Positions 11,633 through 30,817 of a stretch of 34,569 bases of DNA are shown one piece after another. The stretch spans positions 1-34,569 of the forward strand of contig JAMCPX010000018.1 of NCBI GenBank assembly GCA_023382265.1, written 5' to 3'. The position numbers and the translations under genes are program-made. This stretch comes from Deltaproteobacteria bacterium (GTDB lineage: Bacteria > JAMCPX01). Position 1 is the stretch's first letter. Every line of letters starts with the position of its first letter. The notes beneath the pieces were generated by a model. That model did not search any database and was not told the origin of the DNA. It saw nothing but the letters and a program-made list of their open reading frames with translations.

Positions 11633-12706
11633 ATGATGGCACGATTATTTTTAATATTAATAATGGTAACAGCACTACCCGTATTAAGCCTCGCTAATAG
11701 AGGAAAAGACTGCACAACTTCAAAGTGTCATACAGGCATTTTATCAGGCTCTTTTAAACATCCCGCACTTGACAGCATGGGATGCATAGACTGTCATGCG
11801 CCAGCAAAAGGTAGTCATAAATTTACATTATCTGCCTCTGTTCCTGATCTATGCTATACATGTCATGATAAAAAGAATACAAAAAAAGATGTGCATCCAC
11901 CTGTTACGCAGGGCAAATGTGTGACATGTCATAATCCTCATTCTGAAAATAACAAATATTTATTGAGAACAAAAGGCATGATAAGAGGTCCGGTTTTCCT
12001 CCAGAAACAAGGCAACAAAGACATCTACATTGTTCAACCTATCAATAACATAGCAGGACTATGTTTATCATGTCATAAGGATATAATAAAAAAAACTTAT
12101 GTACATGATGCTGTAAAACTTGGCAGGTGTCTTACATGTCATCATGCCCATGAATCAGACCATGACCATCTTTTAAGAAAACCATCTCCTGTAAGCAACA
12201 CGTGTTTTATCTGTCATGAAGATGATCTAACAGGAAGAAAGGTCATACATCCTGCTGTTGCAGGTGGTGAATGCACAAACTGTCATAACCCACACGCCTC
12301 TGATAATCCTTATATGCTTGCTGCGAAAGGCAAAGAACTGTGCTATATGTGTCATGAACCAAAAGACAAAGATAAGGTTGTGCATCCTGCTTTAGAAAAA
12401 TATGGCTGTATAGCATGCCATGATCCACATGGTTCAAATAATGATTTTATGTTGAAGAAGCCTATAAATGAGCTGTGTGCAACATGTCATAAACAACAGA
12501 CCGATGGCTTTCATATCTTTACAACGCCTCAAAACAAGCCCCATCCTGTATCAGGTGTATATGATATGAAGGAACTGAAAGGCAAACCGCTTACCTGTGT
12601 AAGCTGTCATAATCCGCATTCATCTAATTACCCTTATATGTGGTATGCTGGCAAAACTAAACTTGATATGTGTAAAAGATGTCATGGCAAAGCATCAAAC
12701 TGGTAA
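11633..12706 (+). CDS. Multiheme c-type cytochrome, 12 CXXCH plus one CX4CH
   Basis: A 357-residue secreted protein with a signal peptide (about 1-21, ending SLA). It carries twelve CXXCH heme sites (for example CIDCH, CYTCH, CVTCH, CLSCH, CKRCH) in the doubled-CXXCH pattern where each pair is followed by NPH or DPH, and its first site is CTTSKCH, a CX4CH form. The CX4CH...CXXCH order is like that of Geobacter-type cytochrome repeats. Regularly spaced HP/PH histidines can supply sixth ligands. It is the first gene after the sigma-54 promoter and is 9 bp ahead of an NHL lipoprotein. A role in periplasmic or cell-surface electron transfer is inferred. Confidence 0.9.
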   Translation: MMARLFLILIMVTALPVLSLANRGKDCTTSKCHTGILSGSFKHPALDSMGCIDCHAPAKGSHKFTLSASVPDLCYTCHDKKNTKKDVHPPVTQGKCVTCHNPHSENNKYLLRTKGMIRGPVFLQKQGNKDIYIVQPINNIAGLCLSCHKDIIKKTYVHDAVKLGRCLTCHHAHESDHDHLLRKPSPVSNTCFICHEDDLTGRKVIHPAVAGGECTNCHNPHASDNPYMLAAKGKELCYMCHEPKDKDKVVHPALEKYGCIACHDPHGSNNDFMLKKPINELCATCHKQQTDGFHIFTTPQNKPHPVSGVYDMKELKGKPLTCVSCHNPHSSNYPYMWYAGKTKLDMCKRCHGKASNW

Positions 12707-12715
12707 AGGATTGTA

Positions 12716-13732
12716 ATGAAAAAAATTTTACTACTTTTATTTTTTATATTTACAGGTTGTGCTGGCGCAAAGATAAAGCCGGCAAAGATCGTATGGCCAC
12801 TGCCCCCCAATGAACCACATATAGAATATATTGAAGCACTTCATGGACGATACGATTTTCCTCAAAGTGCATGGCAGAGGTTTCTGAACTTTTTACTTGG
12901 TCCTAAACAAGAACCCTCACTCGTTCAGCCTATGGGGATTGCAATCAGTGATGATGCACAGCGTGTTTATGTAACAGATTATCAGCTTGGTGCTGTGTTT
13001 GTGTTTGATCTTAAAGAAAAAAAAGTAAGATATATCGGCATAGACCAAAGGTATCATCTTGTAAATCCGTTTGGTATAGTACTGGATAAAGATGAAAATG
13101 TCTATGTTACTGATTCTTCTTTAAAGCTTGTAAGGGTGTTTGATAAACATGGTAAGTTTATCAAAGATATAGGTGTTAATATGTTTCTTAGACCAACTGG
13201 TCTTGCAGTGAATTTAAAAAAGGATCTACTCTATGTAGCAGATACAGCATTCAATGAGGCAAATGGACATGATGTCAAAGTATTTACCTTCCTGGGGAAA
13301 TATGTAAAAACCATAGGTAAAAGAGGCACGGGTGATGGTGAGTTCAATTTTCCAACATACCTTGCTGTTAATGCTAATGGAGACCTGTATGTAAGCGATA
13401 CAATGAACTTTCGTATACAATGGTTCAGTACAAAAGGGAAGTTTCTTGGTAAATTTGGTGTTGAGGGTGATGCCCCGGGTACATTTGATAGGATAAAAGG
13501 CATTGCCTTTGACAATCGTGGGAATATCTACGTTGCTGATTCTGACTTCCATGCTATTCAGATGTTCACAAAGGACTGGAAACCATTAATGTATTTTGGC
13601 GGACCTGGCATAGGATCAGGACAACTTATTATACCAACAGCTATTGCCATTGATAAAAACAACCGTATCTATGTTGCTGATAGCTATAGCTACAGGGTTA
13701 ATGTGTATCAACTGATCAATAGGAATAACTAA
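12716..13732 (+). CDS. NHL-repeat beta-propeller lipoprotein
   Basis: A 338-residue lipoprotein. The signal peptide ends in the lipobox FTGC (C15), so it should be acylated and carried to the outer membrane. After an N-terminal segment with the motif KIVWPLPP, six NHL blades of about 40-50 residues run from ~70 to 335; each has a G[IL]A-x-D/N and a VYVTD/IYVADS strand. The propeller would act as a binding scaffold. A paralogue with the same N-terminal IVWP motif lies at 19676-20695. NHL proteins often accompany multiheme cytochromes in metal-reducing bacteria. The SD AAAGGA is well placed. Its 3' end is duplicated just downstream. Confidence 0.88.
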   Translation: MKKILLLLFFIFTGCAGAKIKPAKIVWPLPPNEPHIEYIEALHGRYDFPQSAWQRFLNFLLGPKQEPSLVQPMGIAISDDAQRVYVTDYQLGAVFVFDLKEKKVRYIGIDQRYHLVNPFGIVLDKDENVYVTDSSLKLVRVFDKHGKFIKDIGVNMFLRPTGLAVNLKKDLLYVADTAFNEANGHDVKVFTFLGKYVKTIGKRGTGDGEFNFPTYLAVNANGDLYVSDTMNFRIQWFSTKGKFLGKFGVEGDAPGTFDRIKGIAFDNRGNIYVADSDFHAIQMFTKDWKPLMYFGGPGIGSGQLIIPTAIAIDKNNRIYVADSYSYRVNVYQLINRNN

Positions 13733-13931
13733 TGATTTTCAATATACAATTGAGTGAAAACCCCCCAATTGGGGTGGTGTTTGAGTGAAAACACCCAACT
13801 TATACCAACAGCTATTGCCATTGATAAAAACAACCGTATCTATGTTGCTGATAGCTATAGCTACATGGTTAATGTGTGTCAACTGGTCAATGGGAATAAC
13901 TATTGATTTTCAGTATACAATTAAGTGAAAG
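13630..13931 (+). repeat. Direct duplication of the NHL gene 3' end
   Basis: Bases 13630-13760 (last blade, stop codon and following spacer) recur at 13801-13931 with an offset of 171 bp and about ten differences. The second copy still reads as a propeller fragment (IPTAIAIDKNNRIYVADS...) ending in TGA at 13904-13906, but has no start codon of its own. The unit GAGTGAAAAC followed by a C-rich CCAA end appears at about 13752 and 13782, with a third, weaker form at about 13924. CCCCAATTGGGG at 13763-13774 is a perfect palindrome between the copies. Confidence 0.85.
13801..13906 (+). pseudogene. Headless duplicate of the NHL lipoprotein C-terminus
   Basis: The frame from ATA (13803) to TGA (13904-13906) encodes the last blade of the upstream propeller with changes R to M, Y to C, I to V and R to G. 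The stop shifted from TAA after NN to TGA after NNY. Without a start, SD or signal peptide it is presumably not expressed as a protein. It fills much of the 299-bp gap before the tetraheme cytochrome gene. Confidence 0.75.
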
Positions 13932-13970
13932 CACTCAACAGACATGTGTGAGCCGTCTTCTTATTGCATT

Positions 13971-13984
13971 TTTGGTTAACCAAA
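13971..13984. promoter_or_regulatory. 14-bp perfect palindrome before the tetraheme gene
   Basis: TTTGGTTAACCAAA lies 48 bp before the ATG at 14032, in the position expected for an operator. Just downstream is TGGCATG-AATC-CTGTT (13986-14001), which resembles a sigma-54 site but has GT in place of the essential GC. The true promoter of the gene is uncertain. Confidence 0.4.
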
Positions 13985-14031
13985 CTGGCATGAATCCTGT
14001 TACAAGTAATGATAAAAAGGAGGTGAAAACA

Positions 14032-14772
14032 ATGAAAAAACTCAGTTTTGCAGTGTTAATGTTAGCCATAGCTGGGCTAACTGTAACAGCAAATGCGGCT
14101 ATTACTACAACCAAGCATAATCTTTCAGCCAGCTCTACAAATTACACAAGATCACAGGCAACAACAGCAGGTGGTACAAGTCAGATATGCGTGTTCTGTC
14201 ATACTCCGCACCATGCACTTGATCAAAGGTTTATATGGAACCATGCTGCGTCAAGCAATACAACATGGACATGGGGTACAGGGAGTGCAACAGGGACATC
14301 AGCTGGAACAGTGCTGCCAACAAATCCGGCAAACCTGCCATCATTCAAATGCATTTCGTGTCATGATGGTTCGGTTGCAATAGGACAGGTAAATGAGGTA
14401 TTTAACGAATCAACAGGTGTTGTAAATTCAAGCTACTCTATACCTATGCAGGGCGATGTGAACGCGGCATACCAGTTGACAAATTCAACCTATGAAGTTG
14501 GTGTTGGTGGAAACATGAATGGTAATCACCCCATTGGTATCCCGTATCCTGGACAGTCACCATACAATGGCATCAGCTCAGGTGCTGGTATAATTATTTC
14601 TCAATTCCAGGCAAGTCCTACAAATGTGGAGCTCTTCCAGGATCCCAACGGTGGTACAGGTAAGGGAGTTGAATGTGGAAGCTGCCATGCTGTTCACGGC
14701 TCAATAAATCCTATGTTATTAAGGGATGCAATAACAAGCAGTCAGCTCTGTCTCGATTGTCACATAAAATAA
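14032..14772 (+). CDS. Tetraheme c-type cytochrome, OmcE-like nanowire subunit candidate
   Basis: A 246-residue secreted protein. The ATG at 14032 is chosen over an upstream start because of the strong SD AAGGAGGTG and the clean signal peptide cleaved near residue 22-23 (TANA/AIT). It has four CXXCH motifs: CVFCH at 53, CISCH, CGSCH and CLDCH at the very C-terminus. Four histidines shared with its paralogue (20676-21407) could be the distal heme ligands: HNLS, TPH, NHPI and VHG. The mature chain is rich in Ser, Thr, Asn and Gly. Tetraheme proteins of this size and layout form OmcE filaments in Geobacter; equivalence here is inference. It is followed by its own terminator, fitting high expression of a structural protein. 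Confidence 0.85.
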   Translation: MKKLSFAVLMLAIAGLTVTANAAITTTKHNLSASSTNYTRSQATTAGGTSQICVFCHTPHHALDQRFIWNHAASSNTTWTWGTGSATGTSAGTVLPTNPANLPSFKCISCHDGSVAIGQVNEVFNESTGVVNSSYSIPMQGDVNAAYQLTNSTYEVGVGGNMNGNHPIGIPYPGQSPYNGISSGAGIIISQFQASPTNVELFQDPNGGTGKGVECGSCHAVHGSINPMLLRDAITSSQLCLDCHIK

Positions 14773-14787
14773 AACTGCTTTTTCATA

Positions 14788-14809
14788 GGGGCGTAAGCCC
14801 CCTTTTTTT
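14788..14809 (+). terminator. Rho-independent terminator after the tetraheme gene
   Basis: GGGGC (14788-14792) and GCCCC (14797-14801) form a stem with a GTAA loop, followed by C and seven T. It lies 16 bp after the cytochrome stop. It would separate a highly transcribed tetraheme message from the downstream outer-membrane genes, or act as a partial terminator within the cluster. Confidence 0.8.
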
Positions 14810-14946
14810 ATGATTAAATATAATATAAGGGTATAAATGTGAGAATGAGAAAAGAGTAAAAAACGTAATGGCTCAGTTAATTGGGAATAGCATTGAAAAA
14901 GCAAACTACCCGTAACCGAGGAATTACAAAAAAACGATATACTGCA

Positions 14947-16638
14947 ATGAAAGTGATGCAAAGATATATACTAATAATCGTATATCTATTGTTTTTACCA
15001 ATAAGTGTATATGCACACAAGTATTATATAGGAGGGCAGGCAAGTTTAAGGTATGAGGACTACCTTGCTGATTATAATAATACCTCTAGCTATACAAGAG
15101 GGTTTGGTGGTGTATTAGGACTTAACTTCGCAACTTATATATACGATCCAAGACTAGCTGTATTTTCTTCTGGCCTTAATATTGATGATATAGATTACAC
15201 AACAACTGGAGGAGGATTAAGAAGATATACAACAGGTTATGTATTAAACCTTACCTTCCTGCCGGATAGCTCTCCATTGCTCTTCTATATAAGAGACATA
15301 TATAATGAGCAGGACACAGGTATAGGTTACCTTCTCAGAATGCGGACCTTTTCTTACGGTCTAAACTGGGCTATTGCTGTAAACTCTCTTCCAAGATTAA
15401 ATATTATTCTTGATAAAACACGCAATGAAATATCCGGCATTCCTTACATATTCAAGCAGGACAGAACAACTTCTGTTGTATCGTTCTCACAGGCGAACAG
15501 GGATAATATATTAACAGGTCAATATCAGTATATTAGCCAGAATGATCTTATCACTAACAGCAATTATACTACAAAGGGGCTTAGTATTAATGATAATAAA
15601 ACCTTTAACAAGACATTACACCTTTATACAGGATTAAACACCTATAATTTTACATTTGCATATCCGTCACAAACAACAATTTCAACAGATCAACTCAATG
15701 TTTATACAAACCTTGTAAGCACCCCTGACTGGAGAATAACAACCAACTATTTTGCCAACTATAGTACGAATGCCTACAGTAAAGGCAGTTCTCAGGGCAC
15801 ACAGGCAGGCTACAACCTTTATTATCGTGCAACAAATACCATAAGTTTTTTAAACGGTATTTATGTAATAGATTCAAGAAGCTCCGGTGATGCAGGCACC
15901 AGCTCAATGGACACAGAATTTATGCAAGGAGGCATTACCTATTTAAAGCCATGGGATCACTACTATATGAATGCAGGGTATAATATTGGGGTTGCAATGA
16001 TACAGAATCCACCTGTTGGTCAGGGGCTGGCGCATACTCATTATTTTGACGGTGGTATAGGCACAAAAGATTTTAAATTCTTTAATGTGTACAATGACCT
16101 GAATTATATGATCACAAAATACACACAGGGTTCAGGTAATAATCTTGATGACTTCCGCTATCTTGCACAACTATATAGTGCTTATTTTAAACCTGCTTAT
16201 CTTCAATCCAATTTTACATATGAAAGGGTATTTCAAAGCGGTTTCTATAACCAGTACCCTTTCTACAATCGTATGCTTAATCTTATATTTTCTCTGCCTG
16301 TATCATACGTTGGTTTATTCTCGCTCACAGGAGGGATTCTCAACAATTCCACCCCTCAGGCATGGTACAGGAATCAATATGTTTCGACAACACTTGGCAT
16401 AACATCCATTCAGAATACCGCTGCAAATATAGTTTTTCAGTATGGATTTAATAGTGCATCATATTACCCATCATCTGAATATACGAGGTATGAGGTTTAT
16501 GTAACACACTTCTACCGCATGCTGTTTATCAATATAAAAGGATACTTGATTAACCAGCACATACCAGGTGCCAACAGCAATGTTCATGGATTGATCATTC
16601 AACTTGGAAGAAACTTCGGGGGTTATATTGGTGAATAA
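14947..16638 (+). CDS. Large outer-membrane beta-barrel protein (porin-like)
   Basis: A 563-residue protein starting at the first ATG, where a signal peptide is seen (MKVMQRY, a hydrophobic stretch, cleavage near VYAHK). An earlier TTG at 14881 would add 22 basic residues before it. The mature part has dense alternating Tyr/Thr/Asn/Ser strands with short turns (for example YQYISQNDLI and TNYFANYST), no transmembrane helices and no heme motif, as in TonB-independent porins of 20 or more strands. The C-terminus is GGYIGE rather than the usual terminal Phe. Beside cytochromes such a barrel may be the sheath of an electron conduit (as in MtrB-type complexes) or a secretion pore. No family was recognised by sequence. 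Confidence 0.7.
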   Translation: MKVMQRYILIIVYLLFLPISVYAHKYYIGGQASLRYEDYLADYNNTSSYTRGFGGVLGLNFATYIYDPRLAVFSSGLNIDDIDYTTTGGGLRRYTTGYVLNLTFLPDSSPLLFYIRDIYNEQDTGIGYLLRMRTFSYGLNWAIAVNSLPRLNIILDKTRNEISGIPYIFKQDRTTSVVSFSQANRDNILTGQYQYISQNDLITNSNYTTKGLSINDNKTFNKTLHLYTGLNTYNFTFAYPSQTTISTDQLNVYTNLVSTPDWRITTNYFANYSTNAYSKGSSQGTQAGYNLYYRATNTISFLNGIYVIDSRSSGDAGTSSMDTEFMQGGITYLKPWDHYYMNAGYNIGVAMIQNPPVGQGLAHTHYFDGGIGTKDFKFFNVYNDLNYMITKYTQGSGNNLDDFRYLAQLYSAYFKPAYLQSNFTYERVFQSGFYNQYPFYNRMLNLIFSLPVSYVGLFSLTGGILNNSTPQAWYRNQYVSTTLGITSIQNTAANIVFQYGFNSASYYPSSEYTRYEVYVTHFYRMLFINIKGYLINQHIPGANSNVHGLIIQLGRNFGGYIGE

Positions 16639-18793
16639 GTATTTAAAACCTCTATTACTAATTATGTTTTTTTGGTGCTTAATAATACCCATTGTTAAGT
16701 GGGGATGGGAGTATGAGTGGATAAAGATCACATTTTCTGCTTTATCTGCTTTTATATTTTTTGGACTTGTCTCTATAATCCATCAGAATAAAATGCCTAC
16801 AAAAATACCTGGTGTAATGCTGTTTACAGGGATAATAGGTATATGGATTGTTATTTCTATAATATCCTCAAAAGTACCTATAAAAGGGTTTGTTGAAATT
16901 ATAAAAGTACTTGGTCCATTTTTTATGTATCCTGCTTTGATTATCCTTGCACCGGATGACAACGATATGGACCTACTTACAATTGCTATTGCTATCGGGG
17001 TCATAATAAGTGCATCAATAGGTTTTGTTCAGCTTACAGGTGTATATGGCTATATTCCCACTGATCAGTATGGCAGGATAAATCCAATATCTACCTTTGG
17101 GCTATCAAATTTTGGTGCTGAGTACATTGTCAGTGTCTTACCTTTGCTTATAAGTCAATTTATTTTCAGGAAAAAACTGTGGAACAGCATTGTCATTGGT
17201 ATTGGGATAATAGGAGGCATACTGTATGTTATAATTTCACATTCAAGAGCTTCATGGATTGCTCTCATTATTTTAAGTCTTGTAAGCATTGGTATGTTTA
17301 TTTCTGTAAGAAGGAAAAGGCAATTCAAAATAAATCTGTCCCCTTTATACATAACAGGTATAATGGTTGCAGGTACTTTTTTGCTCTCCTTGATATTCAG
17401 TCAGACAAGCAGTCTGATCAAACATTTCACATCTATATTCAATGTATATTATCCCGATAACATCGTAAGATTGCTTACATGGAAATCAATACTTGTATAT
17501 CTTGCACCATCACATCCTGTTTTAGGCATTGGGTTTGGTGCATTTGATGCTGTATTCCCGTTATATGCTGATAAGACATTATCCCTGATGACATTTTCAA
17601 ATCATGTTACTATGAACTATGCACATAACGAATACCTCAACATACTGTCAGAAACAGGCATCCCTGGATTCCTGATGTTTATTGGTTTACTCATGTATAT
17701 ACTATACGAATTTGTATACAGTATATCAAAGGCTAAAGGAAAAGATATACCTGTTCTTATTGGCGGGTTCCTCGGATTTATCAACCTGCTTATTATTGGC
17801 TTATTTTCATTCCCTCTTAGAATGCCTGCAACAGCCGTTTTATTCTGGATGTATGCTGGCATTGGTAGTTTATACTCTCATAGCACATTTAATGTGAAGC
17901 CTTATGTATGGAAGATCAGCAACTATGTACTAGTAGTTTTGAGCTTTTTAGTATTCATTGCTGCTTTTCATATAACCCTTGCCCAAAGGGCATACCTCTT
18001 TGCTAATACCCTATTCAAACAGAACCATACCCAAAGCTCTGCAATGATGGGTGAGATTGAAGATAAACTTTCTTATGCCATTACCCAGGCACCTTTTAAT
18101 GAAAACTATTTTTTTGACAGGGCAATGATTAGAATTAACCGTGGTAACAGAATCGGTGCTTTAAAGGATCTGAAAGATACTATAAATCTATCCCCATACT
18201 ATCTTCAGGCGCGGCGATGGCTTGGCATACTTTATTCAGATAAGGGTGATTATAGCAATGCAATGAAACAATTTAACATGGCATACAAGCTTGCTTATTT
18301 TTCTCCTACTGTTCAGGCGATTATCATGAACGATCAGACAGTGGTACTTATAAGAAAAGGCAATTACACCGCAGCACTTAATACTGTTAAAAAGACCCGG
18401 CTTCTTGATCCATACAATTATACATTGTTTGAATTACAAGGAGAAGCAAGTGAACATCTTGGCTTATATGATCAGTCACTGCAGGCATATAAACATGCGT
18501 TAGAGTTAAATCCTGAACAGAGAGATACGGCTGTTAATCTTGCATCACTCTATATACAGTTAAAGAAATATGATAAGGCTTTATCTCTATTGAAGGCTGT
18601 TAAACAACCTGATGCGTATGTGTACTACAACCTCGCATGTACTTATGCAAGGATGGGCAATCAACGTGAAGCATGGAGAAACATATCTATTGCAATAAAG
18701 ATGAATAAAGCATTATATCCCAGTGCCTTAAATGATCCTGATCTCCGCGCCCTGCATATATTTTTAAAGAAACTGCCAGAGAGATTATTATGA
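16631..18793 (+). CDS. O-antigen ligase/oligosaccharyltransferase-like membrane protein with TPR domain
   Basis: A 720-residue protein starting at GTG 16631, overlapping the barrel gene by eight bases, with GGGGG as SD. About ten to twelve transmembrane helices fill residues 1-450. The Wzy_C (O-antigen ligase/polymerase) signatures are present: HSRASWIALIIL, GIGFGAFDAVFPLY and HNEYLNILSETGIPG. The C-terminal 270 residues are TPRs (ALKDLKDTINLSPYYLQARR, ALELNPEQRDTAVNLASL). PglL-type enzymes of this family transfer glycans to protein Ser/Thr, sometimes with TPRs for substrate choice. In this cluster it may glycosylate a secreted cytochrome; alternatively it modifies polysaccharide. Confidence 0.85.
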   Translation: MNKYLKPLLLIMFFWCLIIPIVKWGWEYEWIKITFSALSAFIFFGLVSIIHQNKMPTKIPGVMLFTGIIGIWIVISIISSKVPIKGFVEIIKVLGPFFMYPALIILAPDDNDMDLLTIAIAIGVIISASIGFVQLTGVYGYIPTDQYGRINPISTFGLSNFGAEYIVSVLPLLISQFIFRKKLWNSIVIGIGIIGGILYVIISHSRASWIALIILSLVSIGMFISVRRKRQFKINLSPLYITGIMVAGTFLLSLIFSQTSSLIKHFTSIFNVYYPDNIVRLLTWKSILVYLAPSHPVLGIGFGAFDAVFPLYADKTLSLMTFSNHVTMNYAHNEYLNILSETGIPGFLMFIGLLMYILYEFVYSISKAKGKDIPVLIGGFLGFINLLIIGLFSFPLRMPATAVLFWMYAGIGSLYSHSTFNVKPYVWKISNYVLVVLSFLVFIAAFHITLAQRAYLFANTLFKQNHTQSSAMMGEIEDKLSYAITQAPFNENYFFDRAMIRINRGNRIGALKDLKDTINLSPYYLQARRWLGILYSDKGDYSNAMKQFNMAYKLAYFSPTVQAIIMNDQTVVLIRKGNYTAALNTVKKTRLLDPYNYTLFELQGEASEHLGLYDQSLQAYKHALELNPEQRDTAVNLASLYIQLKKYDKALSLLKAVKQPDAYVYYNLACTYARMGNQREAWRNISIAIKMNKALYPSALNDPDLRALHIFLKKLPERLL

Positions 18794-19683
18794 TATTGCG
18801 GAATATTGCCTTAAATTTATGCATATCAATTGTGCTTATCCTTTGTATTGCCGGGGCAGTATTTTCAGCGCCGTACAAGAATGGATTATCGGGTATGTTT
18901 GATGTACCTGATACGACTACATTAGGCAGCGGCGCATTTCTGTACAACGTATGGGCAGAGTACTATAAACAGGATAGGACAGATAACTTTAATGTTTCAC
19001 CCGTTACTGTCTCATTTGGTATACTGGATAATCTGGAAGTTATGATTGGTGCTGTGCATTACAACAAGTATCAACTGCTTTATGAAAAAAACAGCATAGG
19101 TATGATTGTTGGCGCTAAATGGCGATATTTTCAAAACCCAGACCTCGCTACTTCTGTAATTGGCGACAACATTTCAGGACATCCTTCAGTAGATATACGA
19201 GAGGTTATTGAGAAACGCTTTAACAAGCTTAATCTCACCTTCAGTACCGGCTATCTGTCCGTGCTAAGAGCACTCATTTTAAGTGGTGGCATAATTTACA
19301 GGGCAGGAGAGCAATGGGATATACTCTTTGATACAGACAACTGGATCGTTAACAGCACTGTTTTCAAAAACAGATTTGAAGGCACAGCAGGTGCAAGGTA
19401 CTATTTTGCTAATAGATCAACTGTTTTATCAGGCGGCATTGGTGGTGGTATGTCTTATACAGGAAAGGATGAGATGCATATTATCTTAGGACTTAGTGTA
19501 TGCTCTTCCTCACAATCACTCAACAATGCTAAAATTGTTGAAGCAACCAAACCAACCTCTGAATCAGCCACACAACTCAATACGGTTAAACAGAAGACAT
19601 TTGAATCACCAGTACCTGAGTTTAAGATGCGCATGCCTATCCAACCTGTTCCCGATGAAAATACGGGTAAAAAAAATGATTAA
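18790..19683 (+). CDS. Outer-membrane beta-barrel protein, YjbH-like
   Basis: A 297-residue protein with signal peptide (1-26, cleavage near VFSA/PYK). The mature N-terminus GLSGMFDVPDTTTLG resembles the start of YjbH/exopolysaccharide-export barrels (G-x-x-G-x-x-[DE]-x-P-[DT]). Alternating strands run to about residue 240, for example VSPVTVSFGILDNLEVMIGA and FEGTAGARYYF, then a Thr/Lys/Pro-rich tail of about 55 residues. It overlaps the upstream gene by four bases (ATGA). It may work with the glycosyltransferase-like protein before it, for example in surface glycan export. The family call is tentative. Confidence 0.55.
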   Translation: MILRNIALNLCISIVLILCIAGAVFSAPYKNGLSGMFDVPDTTTLGSGAFLYNVWAEYYKQDRTDNFNVSPVTVSFGILDNLEVMIGAVHYNKYQLLYEKNSIGMIVGAKWRYFQNPDLATSVIGDNISGHPSVDIREVIEKRFNKLNLTFSTGYLSVLRALILSGGIIYRAGEQWDILFDTDNWIVNSTVFKNRFEGTAGARYYFANRSTVLSGGIGGGMSYTGKDEMHIILGLSVCSSSQSLNNAKIVEATKPTSESATQLNTVKQKTFESPVPEFKMRMPIQPVPDENTGKKND

Positions 19684-20695
19684 AAAGCGTTTTATTATAT
19701 CGCTTTTTTTATTCGTAGTTTTAACAGGATGTGCACACACGCCGCAATTCAAAACTGTAAATATTGTTTGGCCTGAAAACAACCCGCGCATATCATTTGT
19801 CCGCTCTGTATACTCTGCAAATGATCTAGGTATCAGGCCCGGATGGATTTCACGGATATTCAGTTTTATCACAGGTGCAAATAGCCAGTACAGTATCCGG
19901 TTTTCTCCTTTTGCGATTGCTGCTTACAAAGGAATTATAGGTGTTACAGATATACAGGCATCAGATGTGAGGCTTTTTGATAAGGATAATAACAGCTTTA
20001 CTATTATCAGTAAATGTGGCGCTTCATATTTTACCACACCAACAGGCATAGCAATAACAGAAAATAGAGTATATGTTGCGGATTCCTCTCAGAAAAGTGT
20101 ATTTATAATAAGCAGGAGCGGCAGGTGTCTGGAAAGCATTACCAATAGTTTATTTATCAGACCCACTTCTGTTGCCATTGCAGGAAATGGAGATATATAC
20201 ATAGTAGATACAGGTATGAACATGGTTTTTGTATACGATAATAGAGATAAATTTAAATTTTCTTTCGGCTCGCATGGCGATAGAGCAGGTGAGTTTAATT
20301 TTCCAACAGCCATCACAATAAAAAATAACACAGTATTTATCATAGACAGCCTTAACTTCAGGATCCAGATATTTTCACTTAACGGTAAATTTATATCATC
20401 CTTTGGCAGACAGGGAGATGGAAGCGGTGATTTTGCCAGACCCAAAGGCATAGCAGTGGATTCGGATGGCATTATTTATATAAGTGATGCATTGTTTGAT
20501 GTGGTTCAGATGTTTAGCGCTAAAGGGGATTATCTTATGACATTTGGAAGGCATGGAACAGATGGTGGAGAGTTATCAATGCCATCAGGCATAGTTGTTG
20601 AACACGGCCGCATTTATGTTGCAGATGAGTTAAACAACAGGATTGATATATTTAAAAGGATAGTTGATACGGAGAATGGAGCACCACATCAATAA
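19676..20695 (+). CDS. NHL-repeat beta-propeller lipoprotein, second copy
   Basis: A 339-residue lipoprotein, started at ATG 19676 because a perfect signal peptide and lipobox (VLTGC, C18) follow; the long upstream extension of this frame overlaps the previous gene and is not real. Six NHL blades follow (for example TPTGIAITENRVYVADSS and PKGIAVDSDGIIYISDA). It is a paralogue of the protein at 12716-13732, sharing the post-lipobox motif IVWP and blade order. Each NHL lipoprotein is followed by a tetraheme cytochrome in the cluster, suggesting that the two form a functional pair. The start overlaps the preceding gene by eight bases. Confidence 0.88.
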   Translation: MIKKRFIISLFLFVVLTGCAHTPQFKTVNIVWPENNPRISFVRSVYSANDLGIRPGWISRIFSFITGANSQYSIRFSPFAIAAYKGIIGVTDIQASDVRLFDKDNNSFTIISKCGASYFTTPTGIAITENRVYVADSSQKSVFIISRSGRCLESITNSLFIRPTSVAIAGNGDIYIVDTGMNMVFVYDNRDKFKFSFGSHGDRAGEFNFPTAITIKNNTVFIIDSLNFRIQIFSLNGKFISSFGRQGDGSGDFARPKGIAVDSDGIIYISDALFDVVQMFSAKGDYLMTFGRHGTDGGELSMPSGIVVEHGRIYVADELNNRIDIFKRIVDTENGAPHQ

Positions 20696-21407: not shown

Positions 21408-21418
21408 TAGATGTAACC

Positions 21419-22993: not shown

Positions 22994-24397
22994 ATGTTTA
23001 AAAATATAGGTATTTGTATAATTGCCCTCTTGTTGACATACGCTACAATAGGGGCAAGTAATGCCAATGCATCCGTACCTGTGATCAATGGTATTAATGC
23101 GATTCCATCTGCATTATTCCCCGGTAGAACAAGTATAATAGATGTGAATGCAAGCTCAACTGATAATGGGATGCTTGTGTATACATATTCGTGTAATGCT
23201 GGTAGCTTTATTACCTGGATTGGTAGTCAGGCAAGATGGCTATCCCCAGTTGTTGGTGGGCATTATACTATCACAATTACTGTAAGCTCTACAAAAGGGG
23301 GCGAGGCATTTACCTATGTTTCATTGGAGGTTCAACCTGCCTTCTATTATAAAAGCCTTAATAATCTTGAGGAGCCTGTTTATCTGACAACTGATCGCAA
23401 TGGCAACCTTTATATATCCGAGCCTTATGCCAGAAGGCTTACAGCATTTAACAGCAGGGACAAAATCCTTTTCAGCGGTTCAACAACCATCAAAAATGGT
23501 CCACTTACTGTTATGAATAATATGATTTACGTTGCTTCAAAGACAGACGGCAGTATAAATGCCTATTCCACAGTTGATGGTGGTTTTGTATCAACAATAT
23601 GTAAGAAAAATACTTTTAATAATCCCTCAGGTATTGCAGGTAATGATTCTGCAAGAATCCTTTATGTTTCTGATGGCTCTAATATTCATATTATAGATAC
23701 TGTCTGTAATAGATTGGGTGATATTGCCTATATCAGCAACGGTATGCCTGTTGGTATGAACTTTGATAATGTTGATGGTGTACTATCCATAGCTGATCCG
23801 CTCAGTGCAAACGTAACCATAATAAATACCCTAAACAATAGCTCTGTTCAGGTCGGTCAGTATGGAGTAAATGGCTCCATAGGATGGTCTGGATTTAACC
23901 CCGGCTTTGATAATGGAACAAGCCTTATAAGACCTTTAAGCGTTGCAAAGGATGCCTTTAACAGATACTACGTTGCTGATGGTTATCAGAATTCGGTATT
24001 TGTTTATACAGATCAGAACATGTTTGTAGGCTCAATAGGGTATTATGGTACTGACCCTGGCGCATTCAAAAATCCAACAAGCCTTGCTATTGATAGAACC
24101 AACGGGTTTCTATATGTTGCTGATCCTTTTAATAACCGCGTTGAGGTATTCAACATTGATAAAAAACCATTGCCCCCAACCAGTTCAACAACCATCGTAA
24201 ACCCGCCAACAACCATTGTAAACCCGCCAACAACAGTCACAAGCAATGCTGTGGCAATTTCAAAAAGTACAGGCTGTGCATGTAATTTGTCTGGCAGTGG
24301 ATCAGGTAGCGTATCAATAATGGATGGGATGGATGGATATACTGAGCTGGTTATGCTTGGATTGTTTATGTTGTTGATCAGGAGAAAGCATGCGTAA
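22994..24397 (+). CDS. Secreted Ig-like + NHL-propeller protein with MYXO-CTERM-like tail
   Basis: A 467-residue protein: signal peptide (1-27), an Ig/PKD-like beta domain (~30-112, ending YTITITVSSTKGG), NHL blades to ~390 (for example PVYLTTDRNGNLYISEP and PTSLAIDRTNGFLYVADP), then a Thr/Pro linker with an exact-like repeat TTIVNPP. The last 40 residues read GCAC, a Gly/Ser stretch, a hydrophobic helix (ELVMLGLFMLLI) and RRKHA. A Cys pair, transmembrane helix and basic end is the layout of MYXO-CTERM surface-sorting signals; the fit is by pattern. It has no lipobox, unlike the other two NHL proteins, so it may reach the surface by a different route. Confidence 0.8.
   Translation: MFKNIGICIIALLLTYATIGASNANASVPVINGINAIPSALFPGRTSIIDVNASSTDNGMLVYTYSCNAGSFITWIGSQARWLSPVVGGHYTITITVSSTKGGEAFTYVSLEVQPAFYYKSLNNLEEPVYLTTDRNGNLYISEPYARRLTAFNSRDKILFSGSTTIKNGPLTVMNNMIYVASKTDGSINAYSTVDGGFVSTICKKNTFNNPSGIAGNDSARILYVSDGSNIHIIDTVCNRLGDIAYISNGMPVGMNFDNVDGVLSIADPLSANVTIINTLNNSSVQVGQYGVNGSIGWSGFNPGFDNGTSLIRPLSVAKDAFNRYYVADGYQNSVFVYTDQNMFVGSIGYYGTDPGAFKNPTSLAIDRTNGFLYVADPFNNRVEVFNIDKKPLPPTSSTTIVNPPTTIVNPPTTVTSNAVAISKSTGCACNLSGSGSGSVSIMDGMDGYTELVMLGLFMLLIRRKHA
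24188..24229 (+). repeat. Two 21-bp tandem repeats in the Thr/Pro linker
   Basis: Two copies of a 21-bp unit (24188-24208 and 24209-24229, differing by one C/T) encode two TTIVNPP-type units in the linker of the NHL/CTERM protein. A partial third copy (ACAAC) follows. This is the usual slippage-prone linker repeat. Confidence 0.85.
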
Positions 24398-25844
24398 CCG
24401 CATAAAAAAGGTACTGCTTGTTACGCCACCTTATCACTCAGGTGTCGTGGAATCTGCAGGCGTATGGCTACCGCTTGGTTTTGTCTATATTGCTGGTGCT
24501 CTGAGAGAAAAGGGTTATGAAACCGAGATCTATGATGCAATGAGCCTGTTTCATACCCATGAGGACATAATCAGAAAAATAAAGACAGACAAACCCGATG
24601 TGGTTGCAACAACTGCAATAACAGCATCCTTGCCAGATGCAGTTGAGATTTTAAATCATGCAAAAATGATAGATGAACATATTATAACGGTGATTGGTAA
24701 TGTACACCCAACATTTATGTTCAACGAACTGCTCAATAACCACGGTTCTATTGATTATATTATTAGAGGAGAGGGGGAAGTTACCTTTGCGGAACTCCTT
24801 GATGCCATCAATGCATACGGAAATATAGGGCATGTAAGGGGTATTGCATTCAAAACAGATGACTGTATACATATAACACCTGACCGTCAGCTTCTAATGG
24901 ATCTTGATGCCTTATCACCTGCGTGGGACCTGGTTAACTGGAGGGACTATCGCTATTTTCCTGAGGATAATGCTACACTCGGCATAGTGAGCTCTTCCAG
25001 AGGATGCATTCATCAGTGCAGTTTCTGCTCACAGCAGCTTTTTTGGGAAAAAAAATGGAGACAGAGATCAGCACTATCATTCGTAAATGAACTTGAGATG
25101 CTCTCAGAGCAATATGGTGTAAGCGTTGTCATGCTTTCTGATGAATATCCTACAGCAAACAGACAGCGTTGGCTTGATATACTCAATCTTATTATCCTCA
25201 GAGGCTTGAAGATCAAGCTCCTTCTTGAAACAAGGGTTGATGACATTGTCAGAGATCAGGATATAATAGACCTTTATGTGAAGGCAGGGGTGTCGCATAT
25301 ATATGTTGGCGTAGAATCAGGTAGTAGTACATCCCTTGAGCTGTTCAAGAAAGATATAAAAACAGAACAAAGCAAAAGGGCAATTGATATAATCAACAAA
25401 GCGGGCATTGTATCAGAAACAAGCCTTGTACTTGGCATGCCCTACGAAACCTCTGACACAATAAAACAGGCACTTGATACCGCTGTTTATTATAACCCTG
25501 ACATGGCTTTTTTTCTCGCAATAGCACCATGGCCCTACAGCGATATATATCCTCAGCTTAGGCATCACATAGCTGTACATGACTACAGAAAGTATAATCT
25601 CGTAGAGCCGGTTGTTAAGCCTGATGCAATGGAGCTCAGTGAGCTTGAAGATGATCTTATACAGGCAACAAAGGAATTTTATATGTATAAGATGAGGCAG
25701 TTGAAATCTATGCCCGCAAATAAGAGAAAATTTATGGTCAAACTGATGACGATACTTATGAAGAATTCATACATAGGCACAAAGCTGAGGGGAATGATCA
25801 AAGAGGATAAACAGATAATGTATATGATGCACAGAGGGGATTAA
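24390..25844 (+). CDS. B12-binding domain radical SAM protein
   Basis: A 484-residue enzyme. Residues 1-170 form a Rossmann-type cobalamin-binding domain with VLLVTPPY, PLGFVYIAGALREKG, GNVHPTF and the IIRGEGE turn; the DxHxxG cobalt ligand motif is not present, as in many members. The radical SAM domain follows with CIHQCSFC (C206, C210, C213) binding the 4Fe-4S cluster, then VVMLSDE and YVGVESGS. Such enzymes methylate or rearrange unactivated carbons. It overlaps the NHL/CTERM gene by eight bases with a good SD (AGGAG), and the 14-heme cytochrome starts five bases after it. Its substrate here is unknown; a cytochrome or its heme is possible. Confidence 0.9.
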   Translation: MRNRIKKVLLVTPPYHSGVVESAGVWLPLGFVYIAGALREKGYETEIYDAMSLFHTHEDIIRKIKTDKPDVVATTAITASLPDAVEILNHAKMIDEHIITVIGNVHPTFMFNELLNNHGSIDYIIRGEGEVTFAELLDAINAYGNIGHVRGIAFKTDDCIHITPDRQLLMDLDALSPAWDLVNWRDYRYFPEDNATLGIVSSSRGCIHQCSFCSQQLFWEKKWRQRSALSFVNELEMLSEQYGVSVVMLSDEYPTANRQRWLDILNLIILRGLKIKLLLETRVDDIVRDQDIIDLYVKAGVSHIYVGVESGSSTSLELFKKDIKTEQSKRAIDIINKAGIVSETSLVLGMPYETSDTIKQALDTAVYYNPDMAFFLAIAPWPYSDIYPQLRHHIAVHDYRKYNLVEPVVKPDAMELSELEDDLIQATKEFYMYKMRQLKSMPANKRKFMVKLMTILMKNSYIGTKLRGMIKEDKQIMYMMHRGD

Positions 25845-25848
25845 ACTT

Positions 25849-28632
25849 ATGAGTAGATTGACGCAACTTATCATTATCCTTTTTATAGTGATACTACCGC
25901 TTGCTGCTTATGCAACAGATCCACCTCATAATATGTCTTATGGTATATCCTGCTTGTCAAATCCTCAGAACAATATTACAGGCTGCCATGTTGCTCATAA
26001 TGCAGGAACAGCAGGCTTTCTTTTGACAAATACCGCGGCTACCATAGACAACCTATGTCAGAGCTGTCACAATGGAACCATAGCTGAGTTTGTTAAGGGA
26101 CATTCCTCAACTACAACGACAACCAAATATGGGACATGGAGTAAGGCATGCACGGATTGTCATAGTCCCCACCAGCAGTATCAATGGCGCTCTTATGGTT
26201 CACAGGCTTATATCTTCACCGGTACTGTTTCATCTTTATCATCAACCCAGCTTACAGATACAAGCGTCAATTGGGCTATAAATCAATGGCTGGGCAGTAT
26301 CCTTGTTCCTAATACAACCACTATAACAAACAGCATATATCCTGACACAAACAACCCTGCTATCTTTATGATAACAGGCAACAATGCGAATACACTTACG
26401 GTAAAGATTGTTTCAGGTAGTGCAGGGCTTAATGCATCGACAAGTGTTGGTGCAAACTACAGCATCTTTTACGGCAGACTTATGAGGTCACGGATGTATA
26501 CAGCAGGATGGAATAATATATACTTTTATAATAACGCAGGGATGCATTCATTTGCAGATGGCACAACATTTACAACATCAGGTGGTATAAACTACTACAC
26601 ATCAAATATATGCGAGACATGCCATACACAAACGAACCATCACAGATATACATCAGGCGCCACATTTACCCTTGCGTGTTCTGGTCAGTCGCATCACAAT
26701 GGACAGAACTGTATGGCATGTCATCCACACAGCAATGGGTTTGAGTTTACAGAAAGCCACGGTTCTCAGGATTGCATCCAGTGTCATTCATCTGTATTTA
26801 ATCCCATGAACACAACAACGGATTTTCATCACTACATGAACAACACACAGCCAGTCTATCCAGTGCTTTCTATACCGGCCACACTAGAAGGAACAACAGA
26901 TATAAACCGCAGATGTCTTATGTGTCATGCTGATCACGATGTGTTTAGCCCTGATGTGAATACATCAACAGGCGGCAGGGCTTATAACTTAAGGGCAGCT
27001 ATCTCGTTATCTCCAACACCAACATCAACTAATACATTTACAAACACAGATTTCATAAACAGTACATCAACACCGGGTATCTGCCTATCCTGTCATATGA
27101 CACTTCAGACAAAGAGCTACCTGCAATCTGACAATACAACAACCACGCCTTACATTCCTCTGTCAGATACACTCACAAATCAGGTTTCTGCATACAATGC
27201 TTCAGCACACAACTATCGAGTATCCTCGCTTTTCACGTCTTCAACAGAAACAGGATGCAATTATAACAATACATTTAATGCGAACTGTACAAAGTGTCAT
27301 AATGACACGATGTATCCAAAAAGCTCTCAGGGTGCGCAAATAACAACATATCCACAGGTATTTGGCATTCATGATTCAAGCATTTCATCCATAGTTGCTC
27401 CGCTTGTGTTGTGGCTATTTCCATATCTTCAATCAGGTCTGCCATTCTCACCACTTAATGAAAAATTTTGTTATCAGTGCCACGGTGCGAGCAATCCGAA
27501 TGCACCAAATAAGGATTACTACAATGTAGCTACGATGAGTGGGGTATCAACATCCATAGACAGTGCATTCAACAAGCCATACCAGCATCCAATAACCACA
27601 ACAAGCTATCTGCATAAGCCTTATGGAGAAGGGCTGTTATTCAACGATGGAACGCTTAGTGGTGCAAACAGGCATGTGGCATGCACGGATTGCCATAACC
27701 CACATACAGCAACGCCATCCATCCCTCTGTATGGTGCAAGCGGCGTAACAGTCACAAATCCACAGCAGGATTTTATTGATCTCGTATCCTCCAATTACAC
27801 GTACGCACCCAATGCATCTGTTACGCTGGCTCAATCTGGCGGGACGACAAACACAAACCTTGATTACAAACTGTGTTTCAAGTGTCATTCTAATTGGGCC
27901 TACGGGCTTGCAACAAACGCGCCTAATCCAACTCCATCTGCATCATGGCAGCAGACAAATATGGCACAAGAGTTTAATGTGAATAACTGGTCTTATCATT
28001 ATGTAGAAGGTGATCAGACAGCATCCGTATTACCTGCATCAGGTACGGGATGTAATTCATACGGACCAAATATAGGCAATGTTACACCAAGGGCAAGCAC
28101 AGCTTATGGCAATTTTAACACAACATACATTGGTGTGATGGATTCAACACTCGCAGGGCTTACTAATACCCAGATCCGAACAGCAAAGCTTAGATGCAGT
28201 AGCTGTCATGGGACAGACAATGCATCAAGTTCAGTGCCGGAAGGACCACACGGCTCTATAAACCCATTTATACTCAAAATACCTGCTGGCAGTCCTTATA
28301 ACGCATGGGATAGTACAGTGAAATACGCTACGGACTCTGGAAGAATATGGTGTTTTAACTGTCATGACCCTAATTTTACAAATAGTGGATTTAGTAGTTT
28401 TGGTCAGAATCTACACACAAATCCCCATAATAACAGAGCCTGCCAGGCATGTCATGTTGCCATTCCGCATGGATGGAAGAGATACAGGTTGCTCAGATTT
28501 GATGATTGTGATCCTGCGCCTTACATGAGTATACCCAATTATGGATTTCATTCAGGGGTTACCTGGGCAACCAGTGGCAACTGGAGAGAAGGGAATTGTC
28601 ATAATACGGGCGCGGTTGACAGTTGTGGTTAA
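25849..28632 (+). CDS. Large multiheme c-type cytochrome, 14 CXXCH plus CX10CH
   Basis: A 927-residue secreted protein with signal peptide (1-22, ending AYA/TDP). Fourteen CXXCH motifs are spread along the chain (CQSCH, CTDCH, CETCH, CMACH, CIQCH and nine more, the last CQACH near 880). The first heme-like site is C-x10-CH (start C35, GCHVAHN), a non-canonical spacing. The C-terminal end has NWREGNCHN with no partner Cys nearby. Long Ser/Thr/Asn-rich stretches separate heme groups, for example between motifs 2 and 3 (about 150 residues). It is followed directly by the heme-attachment genes resB and resC. It may be an outer-membrane or extracellular cytochrome. Confidence 0.88.
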   Translation: MSRLTQLIIILFIVILPLAAYATDPPHNMSYGISCLSNPQNNITGCHVAHNAGTAGFLLTNTAATIDNLCQSCHNGTIAEFVKGHSSTTTTTKYGTWSKACTDCHSPHQQYQWRSYGSQAYIFTGTVSSLSSTQLTDTSVNWAINQWLGSILVPNTTTITNSIYPDTNNPAIFMITGNNANTLTVKIVSGSAGLNASTSVGANYSIFYGRLMRSRMYTAGWNNIYFYNNAGMHSFADGTTFTTSGGINYYTSNICETCHTQTNHHRYTSGATFTLACSGQSHHNGQNCMACHPHSNGFEFTESHGSQDCIQCHSSVFNPMNTTTDFHHYMNNTQPVYPVLSIPATLEGTTDINRRCLMCHADHDVFSPDVNTSTGGRAYNLRAAISLSPTPTSTNTFTNTDFINSTSTPGICLSCHMTLQTKSYLQSDNTTTTPYIPLSDTLTNQVSAYNASAHNYRVSSLFTSSTETGCNYNNTFNANCTKCHNDTMYPKSSQGAQITTYPQVFGIHDSSISSIVAPLVLWLFPYLQSGLPFSPLNEKFCYQCHGASNPNAPNKDYYNVATMSGVSTSIDSAFNKPYQHPITTTSYLHKPYGEGLLFNDGTLSGANRHVACTDCHNPHTATPSIPLYGASGVTVTNPQQDFIDLVSSNYTYAPNASVTLAQSGGTTNTNLDYKLCFKCHSNWAYGLATNAPNPTPSASWQQTNMAQEFNVNNWSYHYVEGDQTASVLPASGTGCNSYGPNIGNVTPRASTAYGNFNTTYIGVMDSTLAGLTNTQIRTAKLRCSSCHGTDNASSSVPEGPHGSINPFILKIPAGSPYNAWDSTVKYATDSGRIWCFNCHDPNFTNSGFSSFGQNLHTNPHNNRACQACHVAIPHGWKRYRLLRFDDCDPAPYMSIPNYGFHSGVTWATSGNWREGNCHNTGAVDSCG

Positions 28633-30002
28633 ATCCGGTGTTTAAATGGATAGATAATAAAATAAAAACTCTGTTAACTGTTCTAAGATCACGAAGCCTT
28701 GCTACAGTCTTTATCCTCTTAATAGCTATTTCTCTTATCCTATCCACATTAATCCCCCAGTGGAACTGGGAAGAGAGTAGCGAGTATTTTTACCTCCATA
28801 CAACATACCCATGGGTTATGAAGGAACTCACAAGACTTATAGCTCTTATTGGACTCGAGCATGTTTACACAACATTGTGGTTTCTCAGTATTGTGCTGAT
28901 TTTTTCTTTAAATATAGCTTTAAACTCTTATGAGCGGATAAATATTATAATAAAGCAGTTTAAAGATCATAAACCAATGTCACCAGATGAGATAGCAAGG
29001 CTTAAAATTCATAAGATTATCCCTACGAATAAAAACACAAAGGAGCTAAAAGAAAAGATTAAACATACATTGAAACATAAGGGCTACAGGATAAAAGCTT
29101 ATGACAATGGATTGATAGCGTCAAAACATACTGTGGGTCTTTTAGGCGTTCCTCTCCTGCATCTGTCTATGCTCGTTATCTTGATAGGTGTACTTATAAC
29201 AAATCTTACAGGTTTTAAAGGACATATTGAGCTATCAGAGGGACAAGTTTTTCCCACAGGAGAGCCAAAATTCTTAGGTCCTTCGTATGGCTCTCTCCAT
29301 TTAAATCCTCAATTTGATTTTCAGATTAGATTAAAAAGCTTCAACGTAACATACTGGAACAAAGCGCATCCAAGGCTTTATAAGAGCATCGTAGAGGTTT
29401 ATAAAAACGGAACGCTTCTGTTTTCTAAGGATGTTGAGATGAATAAGCCACTCAAACTGGAAGGATTTAACTTTTATCAAACAAAGTATTATGGCTACTC
29501 TGCCTATTTTGGGCTTGTGGACACGGCTACAGGTTATGAAACAGCAGGGTATGTAAACTTTCCCTATAAAGAGAACGCTATAGGTGCACTCACACAGCAA
29601 TTTACTATCCCCGTACTTGGCTATCTGAGTATATTGAGCGTGAATGTATCCAATCCTGATAGGTTATCCATTGAGATCCTGGAAGGCGGTAAAAACCTTC
29701 ATTACAACAATATTAAAAAGGGGGATGTGATTTCGCTTGGAGACTTTGAATTGGTTTTTCATAATATGGTAAAGTGGACAGGCTTTTACGTCTCCAGGGA
29801 TTACGGTGTATCTGTTGTATTTACGGGATTCTTCTTACTCGTGCTTTCCATCCTTGGTTTTGTATTTATTATGCCCAAAAGGCTCTGGCTTGCTTATGAA
29901 AATGAAAAGCTCTTTATTGGTGCAAAGGTTTATAGTAGACTTACCACAGAGCATACCTATAAACAGGACATGGAAAATATTAAAAGAGAGTGTGAATTAT
30001 GA
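28623..30002 (+). CDS. resB: ResB/Ccs1 cytochrome c biogenesis protein
   Basis: ResB, with ResC, forms the System II machinery that moves heme to the outside and attaches it to CXXCH cysteines. The 459-residue protein has N-terminal membrane helices (about 24-45 and 80-100), a third near LLGVPLLHLSMLVILIGV (~175-193), a large periplasmic domain (GFKGHIELSEGQVFPTG) and a final helix near 400-420. The TTG start at 28623 overlaps the 14-heme cytochrome stop by ten bases; a GTG at 28638 is an alternative. It overlaps resC by four bases. Confidence 0.9.
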   Translation: MWLNPVFKWIDNKIKTLLTVLRSRSLATVFILLIAISLILSTLIPQWNWEESSEYFYLHTTYPWVMKELTRLIALIGLEHVYTTLWFLSIVLIFSLNIALNSYERINIIIKQFKDHKPMSPDEIARLKIHKIIPTNKNTKELKEKIKHTLKHKGYRIKAYDNGLIASKHTVGLLGVPLLHLSMLVILIGVLITNLTGFKGHIELSEGQVFPTGEPKFLGPSYGSLHLNPQFDFQIRLKSFNVTYWNKAHPRLYKSIVEVYKNGTLLFSKDVEMNKPLKLEGFNFYQTKYYGYSAYFGLVDTATGYETAGYVNFPYKENAIGALTQQFTIPVLGYLSILSVNVSNPDRLSIEILEGGKNLHYNNIKKGDVISLGDFELVFHNMVKWTGFYVSRDYGVSVVFTGFFLLVLSILGFVFIMPKRLWLAYENEKLFIGAKVYSRLTTEHTYKQDMENIKRECEL

Positions 30003-30817
30003 AAGAAGAAATCATCCTTTACTGGATTGCGGTAAGCCTGTACGGGTTTGGCAGTATCTTTGCTATCATCGGATTTGTGTTCAAAAAAGAAAGGTTTACC
30101 ACTATTGCACTTATTTTATGCGCTCTAGGACTTGTTCCTCACGGTGCATCAATACTTATAAGATGGATACGGATTGGACACGGCCCCTACATAAACATGT
30201 ATGAGGTTATAAGCTCCAATACGTGGGTGGCGATGTTGTTTTATCTTCTTGTACAAAAAAAACTGAGCTTGTTAAAACAAGCTTCATTTGTCGTACTCCC
30301 TGTGATCTTCCTTGCCTGTGGCTTTGGTTTAATGGCATCTGCAAGAGATATACCACTTCCACCCTCGCTGAGAAGTTACTGGCTCGTCCTTCATGTGCTG
30401 TTTGCAAAGCTTACTGTTGGCTCCTTTCTTATAGCATTTGCAAGTGCTGTGCTTTATCTCTATAAGAACGATGCTAAACATAAGCCGTTGCTGCCTAACC
30501 AGTCTTTAGAGAAACTTGATATTGCTATCTACAGGTTTAATGCACTGGGCTTCGCTTTCTGTATTATAATGATAATAGCAGGCTCTATATGGGCAAACAA
30601 TGCATGGGGCAGATATTGGGGATTTGATCCTGTAGAAACATGGTCACTCGTCGTATGGCTTGCATATGGGTTATTCTTGCATCTCAGGCTTAACAGAAAC
30701 TGGGTGGGCAGAAGATCCGCAATATTAACAATCACCCTATTTCTCTTATCAATAGGTGCTTTCTTTTTTATTCCATACCTCTTTAAAACTATTCATTCAG
30801 AGTACCTTGTGAGATAA
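29999..30817 (+). CDS. resC: ResC/CcsA cytochrome c biogenesis protein
   Basis: The partner of ResB in System II; it binds heme through a tryptophan-rich WWD domain on the periplasmic side. The 272-residue protein has about eight membrane helices and the hallmark AWGRYWGFDPVETWSL, then WLAYGLFLHLRL, preceded by NMYEVISSNTW and SYWLVLHVLFAKL. Histidines flanking the WWD segment are the expected heme ligands. Co-location with five multiheme cytochromes suggests assembly of these proteins. ATG overlaps the resB stop (ATGA). It is the last gene of the cluster. Confidence 0.94.
   Translation: MKEEIILYWIAVSLYGFGSIFAIIGFVFKKERFTTIALILCALGLVPHGASILIRWIRIGHGPYINMYEVISSNTWVAMLFYLLVQKKLSLLKQASFVVLPVIFLACGFGLMASARDIPLPPSLRSYWLVLHVLFAKLTVGSFLIAFASAVLYLYKNDAKHKPLLPNQSLEKLDIAIYRFNALGFAFCIIMIIAGSIWANNAWGRYWGFDPVETWSLVVWLAYGLFLHLRLNRNWVGRRSAILTITLFLLSIGAFFFIPYLFKTIHSEYLVR

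Follow-up and report, generated by a model that had tools for sequence, protein, structure and literature searches.

We analysed the first 34,569 bases (hereafter referred to as the window) of contig C18 (JAMCPX010000018.1), from a metagenome-assembled genome (MAG) of a Deltaproteobacteria bacterium (2.63 Mb in 73 contigs, 95.8% complete, 0.68% contamination). Positions 11633–30817 carry a cluster of 14 open reading frames (ORFs), all on the plus strand and in agreement with an earlier gene list (Table 1). The layout is operon-like, most adjacent genes abutting or overlapping. The five cytochromes contain 41 CXXCH motifs (12 in MHC12, four each in OmcE1 and OmcE2, seven in MHC7 and 14 in MHC14), and the non-canonical heme sites include a CX4CH (residue 27 of the 12-heme protein) and a CX3CH (residue 338 of the 7-heme protein). 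Pfam matches above cut-off were obtained for three NHL proteins, Wzy_C with TPR, B12-binding with Radical_SAM, ResB and Cytochrom_C_asm. The System II set for cytochrome c assembly is complete, with ResB and ResC/CcsB side by side, ResC scoring 180 bits against the CcsB profile, just under its cut-off of 188. The gene count, the cytochromes with their 41 motifs, the NHL, Wzy_C-TPR and B12-radical SAM proteins and the System II pair of a preliminary description of the window were thus all recovered; that description mentioned neither the correspondence with the published Uet pathway, nor the kinship of the radical SAM enzyme with BchE, nor the second copy of the cluster on contig C40.

The likely starts of four genes were refined by means of ribosome-binding sites and signal sequences: OmcE1 (14032, where a ribosome-binding site precedes MKKLSF), OMP1 (14947), NHL2 (19676, with the lipoprotein signal MIKKRFIISLFLFVVLTGC) and OmcE2 (20676). 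From its domain, the Wzy_C-TPR protein is predicted to be an O-antigen ligase or O-oligosaccharyltransferase. It also gave a weak match to an exosortase-associated O-glycosylation ligase, and the tail of NHL3 resembles a C-terminal sorting signal. Outside the operon, positions 33106–34047 (minus strand) encode a propeller resembling virginiamycin B lyase (Vgb).

Table 1. Features of the cluster at 11633–30817 of the window.
Feature	Position	Strand	Description
MHC12	11633–12706	+	12 CXXCH and one CX4CH; probable periplasmic electron carrier (predicted location)
NHL1	12716–13732	+	NHL-repeat lipoprotein, UetH/I-like; Pfam NHL 105.6 bits; lipobox read from sequence
131-bp direct repeat, copy 1	13629–13759		Within the 3' end of NHL1
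131-bp direct repeat, copy 2	13800–13930		Duplication scar, found again at the C40 edge
OmcE1	14032–14772	+	OmcE/UetA-type tetraheme cytochrome, candidate filament subunit; matches 7TFS, outside the UetJ clade
OMP1	14947–16638	+	UetC-position outer-membrane protein, probable porin; profile homology
Wzy_C-TPR	16604–18793	+	O-antigen-ligase-like membrane protein; carries Wzy_C (62.8 bits, cut-off 31.7) and TPR domains
OMP2	18790–19683	+	Exported protein; no family match; barrel unsupported
NHL2	19676–20695	+	NHL-repeat lipoprotein
OmcE2	20676–21407	+	Tetraheme N-terminal part of split UetJ
MHC7	21419–22585	+	Heptaheme C-terminal part of split UetJ; own signal sequence
NHL3	22994–24397	+	Diverged NHL protein; C-terminal hydrophobic helix and RRK (tail read from sequence)
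rSAM	24390–25844	+	BchE-like cobalamin-dependent radical SAM enzyme
MHC14	25849–28632	+	14-heme cytochrome, large and exported; belongs to the rSAM/ResBC module
ResB (Ccs1)	28623–30002	+	System II cytochrome c assembly; Pfam 179 bits
ResC (CcsA/CcsB)	29999–30817	+	System II heme export and attachment; Cytochrom_C_asm

Relationship to OmcE and the Uet pathway

The preliminary description considered both tetraheme proteins to be nanowire-like. Homology to the OmcE filament protein of Geobacter sulfurreducens (7TFS) was found for OmcE1 (E = 3.6e-22) and OmcE2 (E = 5.3e-28), both of which also match the 9YUQ cytochrome and conserve the four CXXCH motifs and four further histidines of OmcE. OmcE1 is homologous to OmcE over its full length and has the bis-His ligand set of that family, at low identity. 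A scan of species genomes with an OmcE profile identified 128 relatives, 80 of which were retained. In a tree of 80 sequences, OmcE1 lay on a long branch outside the UetJ clade, among stand-alone OmcE/UetA-type proteins, whereas OmcE2 fell within the clade of undecaheme UetJ-like proteins (support 100/98), together with their N-terminal domains and with other split forms, from Nitrospirae (L055) and Krumholzibacteria (L059), as its neighbours. The loci contained 56 ORFs with ten to twelve hemes and, among those listed, all except one combined in a single chain an N-terminal part resembling OmcE2 and a C-terminal part resembling MHC7. Given this tree placement and these single-chain homologues, OmcE2 and MHC7 are identified from their sequences as a split undecaheme UetJ (4 + 7 = 11 hemes). 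The tree and the domain fusion rule out OmcE2 as a second nanowire subunit, leaving OmcE1 as the sole wire candidate of the cluster.

The Uet pathway of Candidatus Tenderia electrophaga and Gallionella comprises UetA (tetraheme), UetB (a peptidyl-prolyl isomerase, PPIase), UetC (porin), UetDEG (triheme), UetH/I (NHL) and UetJ (undecaheme) (PMC10734462), and in Ca. Tenderia a TPR gene lies among the triheme genes (PMC5371394). The window likewise clusters a UetA-like tetraheme protein of predicted extracellular location (OmcE1, with homology both to OmcE and to the tetraheme gene at loci of the Uet type), a putative UetC-position porin, UetH/I-like NHL proteins and UetJ-like undecaheme domains. 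It differs from Uet in that UetJ consists of two exported proteins encoded by two genes, rather than the one chain of nearly all the ten-to-twelve-heme homologues listed, and in the addition of 12- and 14-heme cytochromes, a third NHL protein, Wzy_C-TPR, ResBC and a BchE-like radical SAM enzyme. The relatives of MHC12 in Uet-type clusters elsewhere carry 5, 13 or 21 hemes. A UetB-like PPIase was detected in L055 and L080, the latter following the published Uet order with the PPIase in place.

The preliminary description also recognised two outer-membrane barrels. OMP1 remains a probable porin at the UetC position, through a remote match to a profile built from the UetC-position proteins of other clusters (hhalign probability 97.5%, E = 7e-12); its amphipathic-strand test was not significant, the control protein OMP3 being positive. 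OMP2, by contrast, had no family match, no match to the UetC-position profile and no excess of amphipathic strands, and its status as a porin relative is unsupported by the profile and the strand test.

We investigated the conservation of the cluster in other genomes, as the preliminary description had proposed. Within the same family, OmcE-like genes were found in one of eight relatives, G005 (locus L040, deposited as 'Deltaproteobacteria bacterium FK_Sedi_A_Bin.102'), in which 14 of the 14 genes are present in the same order, with a ratio of nonsynonymous to synonymous substitutions (dN/dS) of 0.08–0.25 for every gene. Full synteny at such dN/dS values excludes a chance arrangement. Most of the genes are also found together in G360 and G268. 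In G360, from another family, the order is nearly the same: a 21-heme MHC12-like protein, NHL, OmcE, porin, NHL, OmcE2, MHC7, NHL, a 5-heme protein, an MHC14-like protein, a lipoprotein, ResC and radical SAM. The G268 variant has a fused 10-heme protein, ResB, ResC, a lipoprotein, radical SAM and two further OmcE-like genes. The 80 retained OmcE relatives come from Gamma-, Beta- and Alphaproteobacteria, Myxococcales, Planctomycetota, Verrucomicrobia, Acidobacteriota, KSB1, Calditrichaeota, Aminicenantes, Krumholzibacteria, Nitrospirae, Bacillota and Ignavibacteria. A core with the recurring order tetraheme OmcE-like protein, NHL, large outer-membrane-type protein, NHL and 11-heme protein was found under at least 13 phylum-level labels.

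A BchE-like radical SAM enzyme linked to heme assembly genes

The radical SAM protein matched the NCBIfam profile of BchE, the anaerobic chlorophyll cyclase (TIGR02026), over its full length with 403.8 bits, the next family being HpnR (170 bits). On the same profile, true BchE proteins from G067 and G208 scored more than 810 bits, at about 820, and the next-best paralogue in the protein's own genome 234 bits, ruling out an ordinary member of the many B12-radical SAM genes of this genome. A tree of 49 sequences joined BchE and the BchE-like proteins (support 100/98), apart from the other B12-radical SAM proteins sampled, and placed the window protein within a BchE-like clade of 19 sequences (100/100). 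It shares with BchE the B12 domain, the CX3CX2C motif and 34 positions not found in other B12-radical SAM proteins, and its predicted structure has the B12-radical SAM fold, with a predicted local distance difference test (pLDDT) score of 81. The comparison of sequences thus identifies it as a sister to BchE. It differs from BchE in lying among ResBC and cytochrome genes, in a genome in which BchH was not detected at E = 1e-5, which rules out a part in a chlorophyll pathway.

Loci were then selected on the basis of the BchE-like protein alone, not of its neighbours. ResC lay within 6 kb of 21 of the 29 BchE-like genes examined. None of six genes from two distant clades (L185–L188) had ResC nearby and the proportion rises to 21 of 23 if they are omitted; this exclusion was chosen after the neighbourhoods had been seen, making 21 of 29 the fair figure. 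Unbiased clustering of the neighbours at 26 loci gave ResC (20), ResB (17) and multiheme cytochromes (10) as the commonest families, and L172 has the order of the window (radical SAM, large cytochrome, ResB, ResC). The ResBC pair of the window is one of four Cytochrom_C_asm loci in its genome, and is physically tied to the radical SAM gene. A literature search of partial coverage yielded no description of the link between BchE-like radical SAM proteins and ResBC.

Two further observations were made at these loci. In three families (L132:8559–9137, L133:12970–13515 and L134:9349–9834), the BchE-like gene and ResC have beside them a small conserved lipoprotein that is absent from the window. The more distant BchE-like genes of L186, L187 and L188, from the taxonomic order around G315, occur in pairs about 3–4 kb apart, with no ResC nearby, and would represent additional classes of such genes.

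A second copy of the cluster and possible traces of mobility

The segment from 13.63 to 30.82 kb is present again, reversed, on contig C40 (L009), with 93.6–96.8% identity and the main ORFs open. C40 lacks MHC12 and NHL1 apart from the 131-bp repeat, a segment of the 3' end of NHL1 that is duplicated at the left boundary of each copy and constitutes a duplication scar. Synonymous divergence between the copies was 0.09–0.21 over most genes and 0.013–0.022 over rSAM, ResB and ResC, a pattern that looks like gene conversion. The C40 copy might be a strain variant or an assembly artefact rather than a second locus of the same cell, given that the MAG is in 73 contigs and C40 terminates within the repeat. 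We consider this unlikely: the flanks diverge directly past ResC, where the C40 copy has a tRNA-Arg, a TPR lipoprotein and a RodZ-like gene, favouring a second locus; both copies carry the scar, the patchy divergence resembles gene conversion, and contamination is 0.68%.

A tmRNA gene (10226–10574, plus strand, tag ANDYALAA) lies directly after SmpB, about 1 kb upstream of the cluster, and the C40 copy ends next to its tRNA-Arg; insertion at tRNA-type sites could account for both. With a genomic island in mind, an integrase and an att repeat were looked for, and neither was found. A 51-bp repeat (94%) occurs at 62–112, upstream of panB, and at L009:2021–2071, between ResC and tRNA-Arg on C40. 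Just 3' of the cluster in G005, L034:10888–13834 contains transposase-like and IstA/IstB-like ORFs, as read from the sequence, which would fit with mobility.

Proposed organisation and electron flow

The reading that we favour, with a probability of about 0.6, is that the cluster joins two modules, a Uet-type electron transfer module A and a heme assembly unit B whose BchE-like enzyme most likely acts on a porphyrin. From the genes, their homologies, the split UetJ and the synteny, which are directly supported, we infer for module A (11633–22585) a Uet-type extracellular electron transfer pathway, including the localisation of its parts, a conduit and possibly a filament. MHC12 would ferry periplasmic electrons to MHC7, and the OMP1 porin would hold across the outer membrane a cytochrome that is most likely the split UetJ, with the NHL lipoproteins holding or folding the complex. 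OmcE2, on the outside, would be the base on which OmcE1 docks or polymerises; OmcE1 would be the external tetraheme carrier, possibly an OmcE-like wire docked on the OmcE-like half of UetJ. From the equally direct support for BchE kinship and ResC linkage, we infer a substrate for the radical SAM enzyme of module B (24390–30817), which would be a dedicated assembly unit: ResBC would export heme and attach it to MHC14 and other cytochromes, and the BchE-like enzyme would act before or with ResBC, most likely altering the porphyrin ahead of export. Wzy_C-TPR may glycosylate a surface component.

Several observations weigh against this organisation. Pfam and CXXCH counts revealed neither UetB nor the triheme UetDEG in the cluster. 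AlphaFold gave OMP1 a pLDDT of 25 at an alignment depth of 4, leaving its barrel without a structural model. OmcE1, with its long branch, is not resolved as the closest kin of OmcE. The radical SAM protein falls below the curated BchE cut-off (403.8 vs 481 bits) and is hence not BchE itself, and its kinship leaves the substrate unfixed. Finally, most OmcE-like genes of the taxonomic order around G315 are far from the rSAM/ResBC unit, such that modules A and B are separable.

In the OmcE and OmcS wires, one heme is ligated by a histidine of the next subunit (PMC12954529). OmcE1 might instead be a soluble or membrane-attached monomeric carrier that forms no filament, the cluster then providing a short porin-cytochrome conduit. 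We place this somewhat below an even chance: the protein has a long branch and about 30% homology to OmcE, a sequence does not reveal whether its product polymerises, and what cytochrome filaments do physiologically is itself disputed (PMC11077965), but OmcE1 is homologous along its length to two solved cytochromes, one of them an established filament, and retains all four CXXCH motifs and the four extra histidines. Electrons might also flow inwards, with minerals, metals or partner cells as donors to the cluster, which is the direction proposed for the Uet pathways of Ca. Tenderia and Gallionella. The organisms with the closest named pathway, Uet, are cathode- and iron-oxidisers (PMC10734462, PMC5371394), whereas OmcE comes from a metal reducer and the rSAM/ResBC unit also occurs in lineages in which Uet genes are absent or remote. 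Inward flow is accordingly a serious contender that we do not quite favour, and the evidence fixes neither direction.

The radical SAM enzyme might leave heme alone, acting on a peptide, lipid, quinone or apocytochrome side chain, with its adjacency to ResBC reflecting co-regulated anaerobic respiration. Its score below the BchE cut-off, its closest solved structures (a diol dehydratase and peptide or natural-product methylases) and the peptides and lipids modified by other B12-radical SAM relatives are consistent with this. However, it groups with BchE apart from the other B12-radical SAM proteins sampled, with 34 shared positions, and the linkage is specific to heme attachment genes, in many families; we regard action away from heme as plausible, but would not expect it. 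We propose a tetrapyrrole- or cytochrome-modifying enzyme acting with a dedicated heme lyase. The bolder proposal that this widespread family makes a modified heme (its porphyrin side chain being, for instance, hydroxylated, converted to a keto group or closed into a ring), which a dedicated ResBC pair exports and attaches to giant cytochromes, tuning surface conduits, appears to us rather unlikely.

The extracellular electron transfer cluster is a rearranged form of a known Uet/OmcE type, and its new part is the recurrent association of BchE-like proteins with ResBC. Under at least 13 phylum-level labels, a single conserved set brings together tetraheme proteins of the OmcE type, porins at the UetC position, NHL proteins and undecaheme cytochromes. 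How OmcE-like wires pass through the outer membrane is not settled, and this set places beside them a specific porin-cytochrome partner, which bears an OmcE-like domain of its own and could be the base of the wire. Specialists may be surprised above all by the recurrent link of a chlorophyll-type radical SAM enzyme to cytochrome c assembly, in apparently non-phototrophic genomes. Were the modified-heme proposal true, the product would fall outside the known types of heme c variant.

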